In this document: one piece after another, positions 1,969 through 6,868 of the stretch
Layout: the number at the start of each line of letters is the position of its first letter
How positions within the stretch are numbered: the stretch's first letter is position 1
NCBI GenBank assembly: GCA_020431945.1
Contig: JAGQHH010000616.1
Location: 1 to 6,868 of the forward strand
From: Cyanobacteria bacterium HKST-UBA02
Lineage (GTDB): Bacteria; Cyanobacteriota; Vampirovibrionia; Obscuribacterales; Obscuribacteraceae
Direction: 5' to 3'
DNA length: 6,868 nucleotides
Program-made: the position numbers and the translations under genes
Notes under the pieces: model-generated
The model's input: only the letters and a program-made list of their open reading frames with translations
What the model was told of the DNA's origin: nothing
The model's database searches: none

Positions 1969-1971
1969 ATG
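1860..1971 (+). promoter_or_regulatory. Candidate leader ORF chain ahead of the operon
   Basis: GGAGA (1860-1864) lies 6 bases before ATG-TCA-TGA (1871-1879). That minimal ORF overlaps by ATGA with a 16-codon ORF at 1876-1926 (MRTISREIRRKPEKVA, strongly basic). One base after its TAA comes a 13-codon ORF at 1928-1969 (MKGSGCPRDAAKD), whose TGA overlaps the operon's first ATG as TGATG. The operon's first gene lacks a strong ribosome binding site of its own, so coupled re-initiation from these leaders is possible. ORFs this short arise easily by chance, and nothing shows that they are translated. Confidence 0.25.
1946..1958 (+). other. Short GC hairpin just upstream of the operon start
   Basis: CCGCG (1946-1950), loop TGA and CGCGG (1954-1958) form a 5 bp GC-only hairpin ending 10 bases before the ATG at 1969. 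The weak ribosome-binding candidate GGCGAAAG (1957-1964) overlaps its 3' arm, so the fold could modulate initiation. No U-tract follows, so it is not a terminator. Confidence 0.35.
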
Positions 1972-3567
1972 GACCAGGAAACAAGCGCACAGAGCATCGA
2001 AGATGAAAGCATTGCGTCCGATAAAAAGGACCCGGTCGGGCTGTTCTCCGCCTGGATGCGTCTCTTCAAATCCCGGGGACTCATGGTCGTCCTGGGCTTT
2101 CTCATCTCGGCGGTATTCTTCGCAGTCATCGTCAATCGCCTGCACTGGGACGAGGTTCAAGCAGCTTTCGGAAGAGCGGTCTGGCTGCCCTGGCTGCCGG
2201 CTGCCGTGACGGTCTATATCATGGGCATGCTCATGCGCGGCGTTCGGCTCCAGCTCCTGGTGAAAGACGAGTCATCCATCTCGGTAGGCACCGCCAGCAA
2301 TATCGTCGCCGTCGGCTATGTGACCAACAACATCCTGCCCCTGCGCCTGGGAGAATTCGCCCGCGCCGGCATGCTCGCCGAGCGCACCGGACTCCCCTAT
2401 ATCCTCGCCCTCACCATCACCTTTCTAGAACGGCTTCTAGACGGGCTCGTGATCATCTTTCTCTTCGTGGCGGGATCATTTTTCATCCCCCTCGAGAACA
2501 CCAACATCCACTATGTGGCAGCCGGAATGGCGGTATTGTTCCTGGTGGCAATTATAATAGTCGCCTTCGTCACTCTCAGCCCTCAGTCTGCCATCGCCCT
2601 GGCATCGAACCTCACCCATTTCCTGGGACGCAAGTGGCATCACCGGGCTCTCGGTCTCGTCACCCAGATCAACCGCGCCTTCTCCTGCCTTCGTGACGCA
2701 CAGAGCGCGCTCATGGTGCTGGGCACCAGCTTCCTGGTCTGGATCCTCGAAGCAGCCTTTTTCATGCTGGTGATGCCCTGTTTCGGACTCCCCCTGGGCT
2801 TCATCAGGGCAGTGGTGACGATGTCGGCCACTAACCTCGGCATCCTCGCTCCTTCAAGCCCCGGCTTCATCGGCGTTTATCACCTCGCCTGCCAGACCGC
2901 TCTCATCGCAGTCTCATCGGTGTCGGGCTTCACGCCGGGAACGGTCAACACCGTGGATATCGACGCTGCCACGGCCCTCAGCTATGCAGTAGTGGTGCAC
3001 TTCGTCTTCTTCGCCACGGTCACGGTCTGGGGACTTCTCGCCCTGGCGCGTTACGGCTTCGAAGTCGGCTCCACCCAGGCGCTCGCCTGGGAGGCCAAAC
3101 CGATCGGCACCCTGCCCGAGCCCGAGCACCAGTCCATGAGCGTCATCGTCTCCTATCCGGGCACCACCGCACCGGCACACAGCAAGCTCTCCGAGTTCTG
3201 GTCGGCAATTTGCGAATGTTTCACCCCGGAGCCTGATCTCATCGAAGATCCCAAATTGCGAGCCGAAGTCCACGAAGAAGTAGGACGCTTCACCTGCGAG
3301 CAGATCGATTGCATCCCCTTTCGCTATCGACTCCTTTTCAAAGTCGGACTGGTGGGCTTCAAGCTCTACATATTCGCCTGCACTGGCAAATTCCTCTGCA
3401 GCGTGCCCCTGGCTCGCCGCCGCAAGCTCATCGAATTCTGGGCGTTCGGCCCTATCGGCTTGACGCGCAAGTTCATGAAACTCATCCGTAGCCTGGCGAT
3501 TCTCGCATACTACGACCATGAGGCGGTGCAGGCAGTGCTTTTCAAAGGGGAGGAATCATCGATATGA
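1969..3567 (+). CDS. Flippase-like membrane protein with FAO-type C-terminal region
   Basis: This 532-residue polytopic inner-membrane protein belongs to the LPG_synthase_TM/UPF0104 family (the membrane part of MprF and AglD relatives), whose better-known members bind or translocate lipids. It has about 7-8 hydrophobic segments: near 38-56, 70-90, 142-174 (interrupted by the conserved ER..D), 182-203, 245-270, 280-318 and 335-360. Family signatures are the RLGEFARAGML stretch (126-136), FLERLLDGL (152-160) and PSSPGFIGVYH (295-305, the equivalent of PGGLGxxE). Family members are often about 300-350 residues long. Here about 165 extra residues follow the last segment, and residues about 404-525 resemble the helical N-terminus of long-chain-alcohol-oxidase GMC enzymes (LARRRKLIEFW, LTRKFMKLIRSLAILAYY). 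The start is the ATG at 1969; an in-frame TGA at 1951-1953 prevents extension, and the first membrane segment fits this start. The stop overlaps the next gene by ATGA. The substrate is unknown, and no aminoacyl-transferase domain is present. Confidence 0.88.
   Translation: MDQETSAQSIEDESIASDKKDPVGLFSAWMRLFKSRGLMVVLGFLISAVFFAVIVNRLHWDEVQAAFGRAVWLPWLPAAVTVYIMGMLMRGVRLQLLVKDESSISVGTASNIVAVGYVTNNILPLRLGEFARAGMLAERTGLPYILALTITFLERLLDGLVIIFLFVAGSFFIPLENTNIHYVAAGMAVLFLVAIIIVAFVTLSPQSAIALASNLTHFLGRKWHHRALGLVTQINRAFSCLRDAQSALMVLGTSFLVWILEAAFFMLVMPCFGLPLGFIRAVVTMSATNLGILAPSSPGFIGVYHLACQTALIAVSSVSGFTPGTVNTVDIDAATALSYAVVVHFVFFATVTVWGLLALARYGFEVGSTQALAWEAKPIGTLPEPEHQSMSVIVSYPGTTAPAHSKLSEFWSAICECFTPEPDLIEDPKLRAEVHEEVGRFTCEQIDCIPFRYRLLFKVGLVGFKLYIFACTGKFLCSVPLARRRKLIEFWAFGPIGLTRKFMKLIRSLAILAYYDHEAVQAVLFKGEESSI
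3549..3553 (+). promoter_or_regulatory. Ribosome binding site of the GMC oxidoreductase gene
   Basis: GGAGG lies inside an AAAGGGGAGGA stretch within the last codons of the upstream gene, 10 bases before the ATG at 3564. It is the best Shine-Dalgarno match in the window. It supports that start and a 4-base overlap with the preceding gene. Confidence 0.75.
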
Positions 3568-5042
3568 CCGACCCGGATAAGCTCAAACCTGTGAAAGTCC
3601 AGGCGCTCATCGTGGGCTCCGGAGCAGGCGGCGCCGTCACCGCCATCGAGCTCGCTCGCGCCGGCTTCGATGTGGTGGTGCTGGAAGAGGGCAACAGGCA
3701 AGGTCTGGACGCCTATGGACAGTCTTCCACGCGCTCAATGCAGCTCCTCTATCGAAACAAAGGCATGACGCCGATCATCGGCTCGGTCCCCATCGGCTAT
3801 GTCGAGGGGCGCTGCCTGGGCGGAAGCACCGAGATCAATAGCGGTTTCTGGCACAGGTTGCCACCCGAATTCGCCATGCGCTGGACCAAGCAATTCGAGA
3901 TCGACGGTCTCTCTGTAGAAGAGCTGGAGCCGCATTTCGCCTTTGCCGAAGAGCATCTTCATGTGAGCAAAGCGACGAACATCCCGAAGAGCACCGAGAT
4001 ATTCAAAAGAGGCACCGAGCTCATGGGCTGGTCGGCCCGGGTGGTGCCCAGAGCCGCCAACAACTGCGTCAACACCAATGCCTGCGCCTCCGGCTGCCCC
4101 AAGGGCGCCAAGCAGGGCATGACCCAGAATCTAATTCCATTAGCGGAGAAGTGGGGCGTCCGTTTCATCACCGGCGCCAAGGTGAAGCTCCTGCTCAAAA
4201 GCCACCACCGGGTCACCGGTGTCCTGGCCGAGATTCACCGGAGCGATTCCAGCACCGACCTGGTGCGGATCGACGCCGAGCATGTATTCGTCTGCGGTGG
4301 CGCCACCCAGACCCCGGCCCTGCTCCGGCGCAGCGGTATCAAGACCCATGTCGGAGATACTTTCCAGATCCACCCCATGCTCAAAGTAGCGGCCCTTTTC
4401 GACGAAGAAATAGACGCTCACAAAAGCGTCATGCCCATGGTCCAGGTCAAAGAATTCTGGCCCGATATCTCACTGGGCGGGTCTTTTTTCACCATCGGTC
4501 ACCTTGCTATGAACCTCAGCGACAACTGGCTCGAGACCCGGGATCTAGTAAAGCAGTATCGCAACATCGCCACCTATTATGTCGCCGCTCGGGGCACCGG
4601 TCGCGGTACTATCAGACCGGCACGATTCGGCTCGGACTACGCGCATCTCAAATACGAGCTGTCCGACGTCGACGTCAGACACCTGAGCCAGGGGCTCGCC
4701 AGGCTCTCGACCCTGCTTCTGCAGGCCGGCGCCAGAGCCGTCTACCCTTGCGTCCAGGGTCTCGCCAAAATCGACACCGAGCTCGAGGCGGTACGCTGGC
4801 TCGACGAGAATCTGCCTCGCAACAAGCTCAGCCTGACCACCGTGCACGCCTTCTCCACGACACCCATGGGCGAGCGCATGGACCGATGCGCCATAGACTC
4901 CTACGGGAGAGTGCATGGCTTCGAGAATCTCTACGTCAATGACGCGAGCATGCTGCCGGACTCGCCCGGCATCAATCCTCAGGGGACCATAATGGCAGTG
5001 GCAAGACGGAATGCCCAGCATTTCGTATCGGAGAAAAAATGA
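3564..5042 (+). CDS. GMC-family FAD oxidoreductase, FAO/cholesterol-oxidase-like
   Basis: This 492-residue flavoenzyme is predicted to oxidise a hydroxyl group, passing electrons to oxygen or a membrane acceptor. The Rossmann motif GSGAGG (18-23) begins almost at the N-terminus, with an acidic ribose-binding residue at E41 or E42. A second FAD motif, EGRCLGGSTEINSG, spans 81-94. The GMC C-terminal half carries the expected active-site pair H428 (TVHAFST) and N471 (GINPQGT), plus the FAD-contact segment NLYVNDAS (455-462). Residues 167-183 contain C168, C174 and C178 before PKGAK, a pattern typical of the long-chain alcohol oxidase branch; an Fe-S cluster is not implied. Relatives in that branch usually have a further 150-200 N-terminal residues, which are absent here and seem to be carried by the upstream membrane protein. 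There is no signal peptide, so a cytoplasmic, membrane-associated enzyme is likely. It overlaps both neighbours by ATGA. Alternative substrates are sterols, isoprenoid alcohols or sugars on lipids. Confidence 0.88.
   Translation: MTDPDKLKPVKVQALIVGSGAGGAVTAIELARAGFDVVVLEEGNRQGLDAYGQSSTRSMQLLYRNKGMTPIIGSVPIGYVEGRCLGGSTEINSGFWHRLPPEFAMRWTKQFEIDGLSVEELEPHFAFAEEHLHVSKATNIPKSTEIFKRGTELMGWSARVVPRAANNCVNTNACASGCPKGAKQGMTQNLIPLAEKWGVRFITGAKVKLLLKSHHRVTGVLAEIHRSDSSTDLVRIDAEHVFVCGGATQTPALLRRSGIKTHVGDTFQIHPMLKVAALFDEEIDAHKSVMPMVQVKEFWPDISLGGSFFTIGHLAMNLSDNWLETRDLVKQYRNIATYYVAARGTGRGTIRPARFGSDYAHLKYELSDVDVRHLSQGLARLSTLLLQAGARAVYPCVQGLAKIDTELEAVRWLDENLPRNKLSLTTVHAFSTTPMGERMDRCAIDSYGRVHGFENLYVNDASMLPDSPGINPQGTIMAVARRNAQHFVSEKK
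5030..5034 (+). promoter_or_regulatory. Ribosome binding site of the SDR gene
   Basis: GGAGA followed by an A-rich spacer lies 4 bases before the ATG at 5039, at the 3' end of the GMC gene. The spacing is short, so initiation may rely partly on termination-reinitiation at the ATGA overlap. Confidence 0.5.
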
Positions 5043-6088
5043 CAGAACTAGCAATCGTAACCGGCGCTCCCGGCTGGCTCGGGACGGCTCTTGTCAGATC
5101 CCTGGTCCAGGGACTCGAGGAAGCGGGACTGCCCGCGACACCCGGGCGTCAGGTCCGGGTCGGCAAGCTCCCCGGCAGTGACGATGACGAATTGAAAGTC
5201 CTTGGCGATCAGGTAATTGCCACCGATTGCGATATCACCGACCGCGCCAGCGTCGACCGCTTACTGGAAGGAGCCAGCGGCGCCACTCTGTTCCACAGCG
5301 CCGGCATCATCCACCCTTCAAAAGGTCGTCAGCAGTTTTATGACGTCAATGTGGAAGGCACCCGCAACCTCATCGAAGCCGCCGAGAAAGCCGGTGTCAG
5401 AAGATTCATCCATGTCTCATCCAATTCCCCTGTAGGAATAAATGAGAGCCGCGACAAGCTCTTTGACGAGAACAGCCCCTGCCGACCCTATATGCACTAC
5501 GGCAAGAGCAAGAAAGCCGGGGAGGACCTGGTCAACGCCGCTTTCAAGAGAGGCAATATGGAGACGGTAATCATCCGTCCACCATGGTTTTACGGTCCCG
5601 GTCAACCGCCTCGCCAGAGCCTCTTTTTCACCATGATCAAGAACGGCAAGGGACCCATTGTCGGGGGCGGCGAAAATCTGCGCTCCATGGCCTATGTCGA
5701 CAACATCTGCCAGGGCCTGCTCCTCTGCGAACAGGTCGAGAAAGCCAACGGACAAACCTACTGGATAGCCGACCGGCGTCCCTACACCATGAATGAAATC
5801 ATCGATACCATCGAGGGTCTGATGGAAAACGAGTTCGGCATGAAAGTCGCCCACAAGCGTATGCGCCTTCCTGGAATCGCCAGCGAAGTAGCCTATGTGG
5901 TGGACCTGCTCATTCAATCAGCCGGGCTCTACCATCAGAAATTCCACGTCCTCTCCGAGATGAACAAAGACATCGCTTGCAGCATAGCAAGAGCCGAAGC
6001 AGAGCTGGGCTACGATCCGAAGATCGAGCTTGCCGAAGGGATGCGGCGAAGCATCCGCTGGGTTCTCGATCAGGGGCGTGAGATCTGA
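5039..6088 (+). CDS. Extended SDR: NAD(P)-dependent epimerase/dehydratase, 3-beta-HSD-like
   Basis: This 349-residue protein has the usual length for extended short-chain dehydrogenases. The nucleotide-binding motif is TGAPGWLG (8-15). D65 (DCDITD) is the adenine-ring contact, and FHSAG follows at 85-89. NVEGTRNLIEAA (104-115) is the typical central helix. The catalytic set is S127 or S128 (HVSS), Y154 and K158 (YGKSK), followed by RPPWFYGPG (180-188). The C-terminus (LGYDPKIELAEGMRRSIRW, 323-341) is the substrate domain common to 3-beta-hydroxysteroid dehydrogenase, NSDHL and OleD-type members. Such enzymes oxidise or reduce hydroxyl and keto groups on sterols or on beta-hydroxy acids with long chains; sugar-nucleotide epimerases are the alternative. 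After beta-2 the sequence reads VRVGKLPG, without the acidic residue that usually marks NAD preference, so NADP use is possible. It is the last gene of the operon, and its stop codon falls inside the repeat array that follows. Confidence 0.88.
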   Translation: MTELAIVTGAPGWLGTALVRSLVQGLEEAGLPATPGRQVRVGKLPGSDDDELKVLGDQVIATDCDITDRASVDRLLEGASGATLFHSAGIIHPSKGRQQFYDVNVEGTRNLIEAAEKAGVRRFIHVSSNSPVGINESRDKLFDENSPCRPYMHYGKSKKAGEDLVNAAFKRGNMETVIIRPPWFYGPGQPPRQSLFFTMIKNGKGPIVGGGENLRSMAYVDNICQGLLLCEQVEKANGQTYWIADRRPYTMNEIIDTIEGLMENEFGMKVAHKRMRLPGIASEVAYVVDLLIQSAGLYHQKFHVLSEMNKDIACSIARAEAELGYDPKIELAEGMRRSIRWVLDQGREI

Positions 6089-6165: not shown

Positions 6166-6868
6166 TCACTTTCCGGATTCTTCTGAAGACTCATCCCTGG
6201 TGAATTTGTCTGAGTGCAGGGTCGGTGCCTCTGGCACATAGATCCCTTTGGCTCGGGCTTCGGCATCGTTGATGATGCTCCTGATCCTGGCTTCGGCATC
6301 AGCCAACAACTGATTTACATACCATTCAGGCAGGCCTGTTATGACTTCGCCGCTTCTGGTAATGCCGACAGTCTGACTCTCTTCCGTTTCGCGCCTGATC
6401 CGCTCCTGTACTTCGTGGCGAATACGGCTGGCGGCCTCTCGGGCTTCGGTGAGGATTTTTTCCCTGCGCCTGATAGCAAGCTGGAGCTTCTTGCTATAGG
6501 TCTTGAGCTCGCGCTCATCTCTCACAACACGCCTGTTCTCTTCGGATTCCGCAAGTTTCTTCTTTATATCCGCAGTCTTGCCTGTAGCGGCAATATGATC
6601 GAGAGCCGCCTTGCAATGTGCTGCCGTCTGCGGATCGGGACCAGCCAGGATGCAACGCTCGTAAGCGTCTCTGGCTTCGTCATGATGTCCGAGCTTCAAG
6701 CTGATATTGCCCAGGAGGTACTGCGCCTGCCAGTTGGTCGGCACCTGACTGGTCACTTGCTTGAGACAGCGCCAGGCTTCAGGATATCTTCCCTTTGCAT
6801 AGAACTGCTTGCCCTGCTCGAAATAGTCGGTCCCCCAAACGGGGGCATTAAACGAGAAAAGCAAGCCG
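6166..6868 (-). CDS. Secreted TPR/coiled-coil protein, 5' end outside window
   Basis: The gene is partial. It ends with TGA at 6166-6168, directly followed by TAA, and its reading frame is still open at the right edge. The first visible residues (LLFSFNAPVWG, then TDYFEQG) look like the end of a signal peptide, so the true start lies a few codons beyond the window. The TTG at 6862-6864 would merely truncate the signal. Counting residues from that TTG, two TPR units follow: about 13-46 (YFEQGKQFYAKGRYPEAWRCL) and about 47-80 (AQYLLGNISLKLGHHDEARDAY). A highly charged coiled-coil helix covers about 95-165. A second helix at 182-207 repeats DAEAR with an 11-residue step. The tail is hydrophilic. 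It is probably an extracytoplasmic scaffold. It converges on the lipid operon and, like the other minus-strand gene, carries TPRs predicted to lie outside the cytoplasm. No specific function can be assigned. Confidence 0.8.
   Translation of the reverse strand, partial: GLLFSFNAPVWGTDYFEQGKQFYAKGRYPEAWRCLKQVTSQVPTNWQAQYLLGNISLKLGHHDEARDAYERCILAGPDPQTAAHCKAALDHIAATGKTADIKKKLAESEENRRVVRDERELKTYSKKLQLAIRRREKILTEAREAASRIRHEVQERIRRETEESQTVGITRSGEVITGLPEWYVNQLLADAEARIRSIINDAEARAKGIYVPEAPTLHSDKFTRDESSEESGK

Follow-up and report, generated by a model that had tools for sequence, protein, structure and literature searches.

The 6,868-nucleotide stretch considered here, hereafter the window (positions 1 to 6,868 of contig JAGQHH010000616.1 from Cyanobacteria bacterium HKST-UBA02), carries on its forward strand a run of three genes. 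These encode a flippase-like membrane protein of 532 aa (positions 1969-3567), an enzyme of 492 aa (3564-5042) that belongs to the flavin adenine dinucleotide (FAD)-dependent GMC family, and a short-chain dehydrogenase/reductase (SDR) of 349 aa (5039-6088), and both joints between them are 4-base gene overlaps. The main finding is that the flippase-like protein is fused at its C-terminus to a small-subunit domain (residues ~404-528, positions 3178-3552), an identity well supported by profile homology and an AlphaFold2 model. This domain is a homologue of the N-terminal region of GMC proteins of the long-chain-alcohol oxidase (FAO) type and a distant relative of PF13618, and the GMC enzyme of the window lacks an N-terminal region of its own. 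The best reading overall, which we consider fairly probable, is that the flippase-borne small subunit docks the GMC enzyme at the membrane, where this enzyme and the SDR act on a membrane lipid, perhaps a polyprenyl-phosphate sugar, next to the flippase.

According to an original prediction made from the letters of the window, an FAO-type N-terminal region had moved from the GMC enzyme onto the membrane protein upstream. The features on which this idea was built are present: the C-terminal extension includes LARRRKLIEFW at residues 481-491 (nt 3409-3441) and LTRKFMKLIRSLAILAYY at residues 498-515 (nt 3460-3513), and the GMC enzyme starts almost at its FAD motif, with GxGxxG at residue 18 of 492 aa. 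The membrane part matches PF03706 in Pfam over residues 40-355 (126.9 bits, above the cut-off of 33.4) and stays just below the cut-off of TIGR00374 in NCBIfam (41.8 against 43.2 bits). No Pfam or NCBIfam family covers the protein beyond its PF03706 match, and the extension alone (residues 397-532) returns nothing at E <= 1 in these two collections and no match in the PDB. AlphaFold2 predicts six helices for residues 397-532, with a pLDDT of 92 and a pTM of 0.82. The extension is not an assembly artefact, because three relatives, P0005, P0006 and P0007, share it (99%, 66% and 62% identity to the window, respectively) and the same layout recurs in 32 of 80 GMC loci. The membrane part of P0005 also has 30 additional low-complexity residues near its N-terminus (window 1969-2050). 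Inside the small domain, positions 3316-3384 (residues ~450-472) encode a hydrophobic helix, with a peak of the family-average hydropathy near residue 463; this helix could touch either the membrane or the GMC enzyme.

Relatives of the GMC enzyme are encoded at 179 loci, of which the best 80 make up this set. All of their 6885 open reading frames (ORFs) of at least 60 aa were searched with a profile of seven extensions (the window, P0006, P0007 and L001-L004). With E <= 1e-3 as the threshold, 57 ORFs matched in round 0, and five further rounds raised the number to 75, four of them from seed loci. The extension is therefore not a chance feature: every one of the 75 lies on the GMC strand, and 73 either precede the GMC match by no more than ~200 bases or form part of the GMC ORF itself; in L016 and L068 the domain is located 1.7 and 2.3 kb before the GMC match. 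In L016, ~1.6 kb with a 543-aa ORF (4351-5982) separates the flippase-domain gene from the GMC gene.

The 75 domain-bearing loci present the domain in three layouts. It is attached to a flippase-like protein in 32 (among them L012, whose contig cuts the flippase), it is a stand-alone small gene in 31, and it forms the N-terminus of the GMC enzyme in 12. The split seen in the window exists in other genomes, with the proviso that some of the 32 flippase-fused loci are near copies of one another; each of the 32 has, ahead of the small domain, a part that matches the membrane domain of the window at E <= 1.6e-43. No domain was found in five of the 80 loci, namely L036 and L053, which start inside or at the GMC gene, L062, upstream of which no ORF reaches 70 aa, and L063 and L064, whose upstream ORF of ~125 aa was not taken by the domain profile. 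The record of L064 is titled Bifidobacterium breve, but its GMC gene and the ORF before it look like their counterparts in L063, an Acidimicrobiia locus; it is possibly a mislabelled or contaminated metagenome-assembled genome (MAG). Close homologues of the GMC enzyme also do without an N-terminal region, since the 120 listed of its 1824 relatives measure 463-526 aa, while more distant relatives do carry one (12 of the 75 domain-bearing loci). When the domain profile was applied to 198 and 200 genomes of two phyla it gave 46 matches, for 38 of which loci were retrieved (L098-L135; L098 and L128 repeat L061 and L079). A GMC enzyme is fused to the domain or present in the locus in 32 of these 38, with weak GMC scores in L120, L125 and L126; among the six without one, L131 is cut off close to the edge of its contig, and the other five are weak matches.

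The relationship to FAO-type enzymes emerges from a profile made of flippase extensions alone, which contains no FAO rows. With hmmsearch and a threshold of i-E < 0.01, it matches 113 of 120 FAO-type proteins and 0 of 120 reversed copies; all 113 matches fall within the first 162 residues, and 112 of them end before the first GxGx[GA]G. These proteins are the 120 listed of 1918 relatives of L111, an actinobacterial protein of the GMC-fused layout to which the domain profile had led, and hence are not an unbiased draw, although the scoring used the flippase extensions only. They are FAO-type by annotation rather than by experimental characterisation: 37 are labelled "long-chain-alcohol oxidase" and 113 are annotated with PF13618 by the database. 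Aligned by hhalign with the N-termini of those 37, the extensions reach 94.1% over 48 columns with a score of 49.4, whereas 30 column shuffles scored no higher than 17.8, and the 48 columns take in the stretch that had been singled out in the original prediction. The predicted homology is thus borne out, while the motif proposed for it, of the RR-[ER] type, does not survive as a fixed pattern: a loose regular expression fits 103 of 120 FAO-type proteins and only 4 of 26 flippase-fused rows. The homology is visible in profiles, not in a fixed motif.

Similar comparisons connect the extension to other small subunits. Against a PF13618 (Gluconate_2-dh3) set gathered with the Pfam model alone, the flippase extensions give 96.3% and a score of 57.9 in hhalign (maximum 16.9 in 20 column shuffles), and the same set matches the stand-alone and GMC-fused domains weakly (17.9% and 5.3%). 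The Pfam model of PF13618 has no match at E <= 1 to either the full flippase-like protein or the extension alone, and a PF13618 alignment (14 of 18 loci, A9) finds no PDB chain at E <= 0.01. Between the three layouts the agreement is high, as the flippase extensions (alignment A2 with 26 rows, made up of the window and 25 of the 32 flippase-fused loci) align at 99.4% with the stand-alone domains (A3, 23 rows from 23 of the 31 loci) and at 98.3% with the GMC-fused domains (A4, 12 rows). The gamma subunit of the glucose dehydrogenase of B. cepacia (BcGDH) was also considered and is not claimed as a homologue of the small domain: hhalign gives 13.2, below a shuffle maximum of 15.1, in a comparison with five PF12318 sequences only, L157 having been left out of six on account of stops in its translation. 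It is a PF12318 sequence that matches PDB entries 6a2u and 7w2j. One might still argue that a short helical motif resembles GMC N-terminal regions by chance and that the extension is unrelated to them, given that the single sequence has no match in Pfam, NCBIfam or the PDB and that the loose motif fits so few flippase-fused rows. We regard this as very improbable, because the profile evidence, with its empty reversed control, and the gene positions returned by the locus search refute it.

The history of the fusion was followed in two trees of GMC enzymes, one of 91 rows and a careful one of 73 rows, for which 18 of the 91 were left out. The larger tree leaves out 15 of the 80 loci, namely the five in which no domain was detected and ten that are near copies, and, from the two phyla, L098, L100, L105, L107, L117, L119, L120, L125, L126, L129 and L130. 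The flippase-fused GMC enzymes form one clade (100/100; 100% of 200 bootstrap trees), and therefore the fusion to the flippase arose once. The clade spans MAGs of Obscuribacterales, Myxococcota, Sumerlaeota and Planctomycetota, and the rows nearest to the window include L001, titled Proteobacteria, and several Obscuribacterales or Melainabacteria MAGs. The GMC-fused layout requires at least two changes in the family of the window, even by the starred branches, and L033 and L067, which have a stand-alone domain, branch from an unresolved fork that also gives rise to the flippase-fused clade and to the remaining rows.

With respect to the ancestor, parsimony at the root of the ingroup costs 5 steps for a stand-alone domain, 6 for a flippase-borne one and 7 for a GMC-fused one. 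A stand-alone small subunit is thus slightly preferred as the most simply assumed ancestor of the fusion, and the claim that a usual single polypeptide had been split is the weaker history, by a small margin. A version of that claim, in which the domain was carved from an FAO-like single polypeptide and moved straight onto the flippase, would agree with the many GMC-fused, FAO-type forms among the outgroup rows; it is unlikely in our view, as the step counts oppose it, if only by two steps, and the lineage at the fork has a stand-alone domain. Locus L040, from Peribacillus frigoritolerans, holds a stand-alone domain, a GMC gene and a separate PF03706 gene on one strand and in one run, so that the flippase-fused type joins two genes that co-occur in one run elsewhere. 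The fusion would have come about most simply by the joining of two neighbours of one gene group. The membrane parts of the window and L040 resemble each other only remotely, with 19% identity across 272 columns (E 5e-6).

The GMC enzyme combines PF00732 and PF05199, and cholesterol oxidases are the PDB sequences nearest to it. His428 (positions 4845-4847) and Asn471 (4974-4976), the presumed catalytic pair, are kept in every GMC row aligned, and passages of PMC6719666 describe such a His/Asn pair for BcGDH and cholesterol oxidase. The same passages give Cys212, Cys218 and Cys222 as ligands of the 3Fe-4S cluster of BcGDH, and the enzyme of the window has C168-x5-C174-x3-C178 (4065-4097) with exactly this spacing, so that a 3Fe-4S cluster is perhaps bound here as well. 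The C-x5-C-x3-C motif occurs in 30 of 32 flippase-fused rows (not in L026 and L028), and in none of the 31 stand-alone and 12 GMC-fused rows. A three-cysteine loop of variable spacing is found in 27 of the 34 GMC sequences from the genome-search matches, and each of the seven that lack it matches the profile of the window's own GMC family at E <= 2e-150. As the loop is widespread outside the family and absent in near relatives, the flippase-fused enzymes appear to have retained an ancestral feature that these relatives lost. The motif and the relation to Gluconate_2-dh3 suggest that the GMC enzyme may be a dehydrogenase that passes on electrons, which is at least as likely as an oxidase. No cytochrome family was detected with Pfam among the five ORFs of this short window. 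In L028, a Melainabacteria MAG, the GMC enzyme and the SDR apparently form one 865-aa ORF (5995-8592), and the three-cysteine motif has been lost.

Regarding the complex itself, AlphaFold2 was applied to L080, a natural GMC-fused relative of 622 aa, and returned a pLDDT of 91.6 and a pTM of 0.92 as whole-chain scores. This confidence supports a model in which the small domain packs in a fixed way on the GMC body of that relative. By extension, we infer that the flippase-borne domain still binds the GMC enzyme, which would give a two-chain membrane complex with the flippase. Both the domain and the GMC enzyme would most simply be cytoplasmic, as the GMC enzyme starts directly with its FAD fold. 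Hydropathy does not settle the side on which the C-terminus lies: the window's own plot has five membrane peaks, the family average has eight before the domain, which would place both protein ends on one side, and the charge pattern is mixed.

The steadiest partner gene is the SDR. At most 1.5 kb downstream, a homologue of it is present in 27 of the 33 flippase-fused loci when the window is counted, in 23 of the 31 stand-alone loci and in 9 of the 12 GMC-fused loci. These matches mostly have 45-69% identity, with values under 45% in two of the 27, one of the 23 and two of the 9. The SDR of the window matches the 3Beta_HSD and Epimerase models of Pfam, and the NCBIfam models that it fits best, both with scores far under their cut-offs, describe an OleD-like 2-alkyl-3-oxoalkanoate reductase and a dTDP-glucose dehydratase. 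Grouping by BLAST places a UbiA-family gene within the fetched flanks of 18 of the 31 stand-alone loci and of 7 of the 12 GMC-fused ones. Three of these genes were scanned for decaprenyl-phosphate phosphoribosyltransferase: that of L040 exceeds the cut-off (NF008977, 256.8 bits against 234), that of L037 is 0.2 bit under it, and that of L066 fits best to a different UbiA model, NF006088.

The run in L040 encodes a metallophosphatase-like protein, the stand-alone domain, the GMC enzyme, UbiA, a DprE1-like protein (NF053785, 450.1 bits, below the cut-off of 500), a DprE2-like SDR (NF053786, 152.8 bits, below the cut-off of 250), a separate flippase-like protein (PF03706, 153.8 bits; TIGR00374, 102.1 bits against a cut-off of 43.2), a PAP2-like protein and a GT-C protein (PMT_2). 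A second Bacillaceae locus, L041 from Metabacillus, has identical gene groups in identical order. Eight stand-alone loci contain a small transporter of one group, whose single scanned member is over the Pfam SMR cut-off and has weak matches to ArnE/ArnF among other SMR models. A GT-C gene (PMT_2) follows the SDR over cut-off in the flippase-fused loci L006, L009 and L029, and is 0.5 bit under it in L008. Passages of PMC11127046 list UbiA, an oxidase and a reductase, a flippase and GT-C as parts of a lipid-linked pentose pathway, and the gene context of the relatives therefore points to a polyprenyl-phosphate-linked sugar. That the enzyme of the window acts on such a sugar is a guess, and one more likely to be wrong than right. 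In twelve flippase-fused loci (L005, 8556-10208, and eleven others), another group of proteins of 376-583 aa is encoded downstream of the SDR; three scanned members have no Pfam match over cut-off.

Taken together, these observations can be assembled into a mechanism in which the GMC enzyme, with His428/Asn471 and perhaps a 3Fe-4S cluster, would oxidise a hydroxyl of a membrane-bound lipid substrate, the SDR would reduce or further process the keto product, and the flippase-like part would either move the product or keep the enzymes at the flippase entrance. Substrate, topology and transport coupling are conjectural in this scheme, the last being suggested by the fusion and the gene context. 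A more specific form of it is doubtful: the flippase would bear the subunit that docks its redox enzyme, the GMC enzyme would oxidise a polyprenyl-phosphate-linked sugar, perhaps with a 3Fe-4S cluster relaying the electrons to the membrane, the SDR would reduce the product to the epimer, and the flippase would receive it directly and export it. The whole would be a GMC-based counterpart of the DprE1/DprE2 epimerase for bacteria outside Actinomycetota.

Several observations weigh against a lipid-linked sugar as the substrate. None of the 33 flippase-fused loci has UbiA in its fetched flanks, and the scanned downstream proteins of L005, L010, L014, L016, L019 and L027 include no GT-C. In ten genomes of the flippase-fused type, G008 not among them, no GMC or SDR match at E <= 1e-5 lies closer than 3.8 kb to UbiA. 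The co-occurrence of UbiA somewhere in the genome (24 of 25 genomes) was dropped as an argument, since UbiA is also present in 113 of 121 Myxococcota genomes used as control and its presence elsewhere in a genome thus says nothing. The notion that the GMC enzyme replaces DprE1 is weakened by the DprE1-like and DprE2-like genes in the same L040 run.

The main rival, which we consider possible, is that the flippase part has no role in the reaction and serves as an anchor only, with the GMC enzyme oxidising a sterol-, hopanoid- or fatty-alcohol-like lipid. The cholesterol oxidases nearest in the PDB, the 3Beta_HSD/Epimerase matches of the SDR and its sub-cut-off OleD-like and dehydratase matches, and the long-chain-alcohol oxidase labels of 37 of the 120 listed relatives with the FAO layout all fit this view. 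It is opposed by gene neighbours in the other layouts, i.e., UbiA in the fetched flanks of 25 of 43 stand-alone or GMC-fused loci, the SMR-type family in 8 stand-alone loci and the DprE1-like and DprE2-like pair in L040, all of which indicate a lipid-linked sugar, though none of these neighbours adjoins a flippase-fused locus. Less likely still is that the domain works as a chaperone, aiding only the folding of the GMC enzyme or the protection of its FeS cluster, so that the fusion to the flippase is neutral and no mature complex exists. The description of the BcGDH small subunit as a hitch-hiker and stabiliser, in passages of PMC6719666 and PMC9727119, would suit this explanation, but the fusion persists in one well-supported clade across MAGs of four groups, from Obscuribacterales to Planctomycetota, and the domain and the GMC enzyme of the fused relative give a confident single model.

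The remainder of the window is occupied by other features. Upstream and divergent, on the reverse strand (83-1825), is the gene of a 580-aa protein with TPR repeats and a weak N-terminal match to the ActJ cold-adaptation model; its group is also found upstream in 14 further loci of the flippase-fused type. A convergent ORF bearing TPR repeats occupies 6166-6864 on the reverse strand, and the window opens with tandem copies of catggagctggttg (positions 1-45).

The system can finally be set beside those already described, and in the open-licence part of PMC we found no paper that links the FAO-type N-terminus, Gluconate_2-dh3-like subunits and PF03706 proteins. FAO-type long-chain-alcohol oxidases, which unite PF13618, GMC_oxred_N and GMC_oxred_C in one chain, have a homologous small domain and GMC domain, and those aligned also have the three-cysteine loop. 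In the window, by contrast, the small domain resides on the flippase-like protein, the GMC enzyme is a separate chain encoded by an overlapping gene, and the GMC enzymes of this type fall in a different clade. Small subunits of the Gluconate_2-dh3 kind resemble the domain in profile similarity and, in relatives, as a stand-alone gene before the GMC gene; they differ in that the Pfam model does not recognise the domain and in that it is borne here by a multi-span membrane protein. MprF consists of a PF03706-type membrane domain and an aminoacyl-transferase domain; the flippase-like protein shares the PF03706 membrane domain with MprF-type and other members of this family, and has an oxidoreductase small subunit at its C-terminus in place of the transferase.

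The gamma-alpha complex of BcGDH (PDB 6a2u) is alike in having a GMC catalytic subunit, a helical small subunit, the His/Asn pair and C-x5-C-x3-C, according to passages of PMC6719666. The small subunit of BcGDH belongs to the PF12318 kind, which in a comparison of few sequences showed no profile similarity to the domain described here, and passages of PMC9727119 describe BcGDH as periplasmic via Tat and provided with a heme c subunit. The mycobacterial DprE1/DprE2 systems with UbiA and the three-component pentofuranose systems (PMC11127046) resemble the L040 parts list of FAD oxidoreductase, SDR, flippase-like protein, UbiA and GT-C, and by gene presence alone the pairing of oxidoreductase and SDR in 27 of 33 flippase-fused loci recalls polyprenyl-phosphate pentose systems. 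The differences are that DprE1 belongs to another flavoprotein family (FAD_binding_4/ALO) than the GMC enzyme of the window (PF00732/PF05199) and that the fetched flanks of the flippase-fused loci have no UbiA. Within this family, a single small redox subunit is encoded in three ways: as a gene of its own, joined to its enzyme, or joined to a transporter-like protein. Should the coupling prove real, the chemistry and the transport of a lipid would be physically united in one complex. The Bacillaceae loci belong to named strains, which opens the substrate to direct testing, and the cysteine motif offers a testable electron path.

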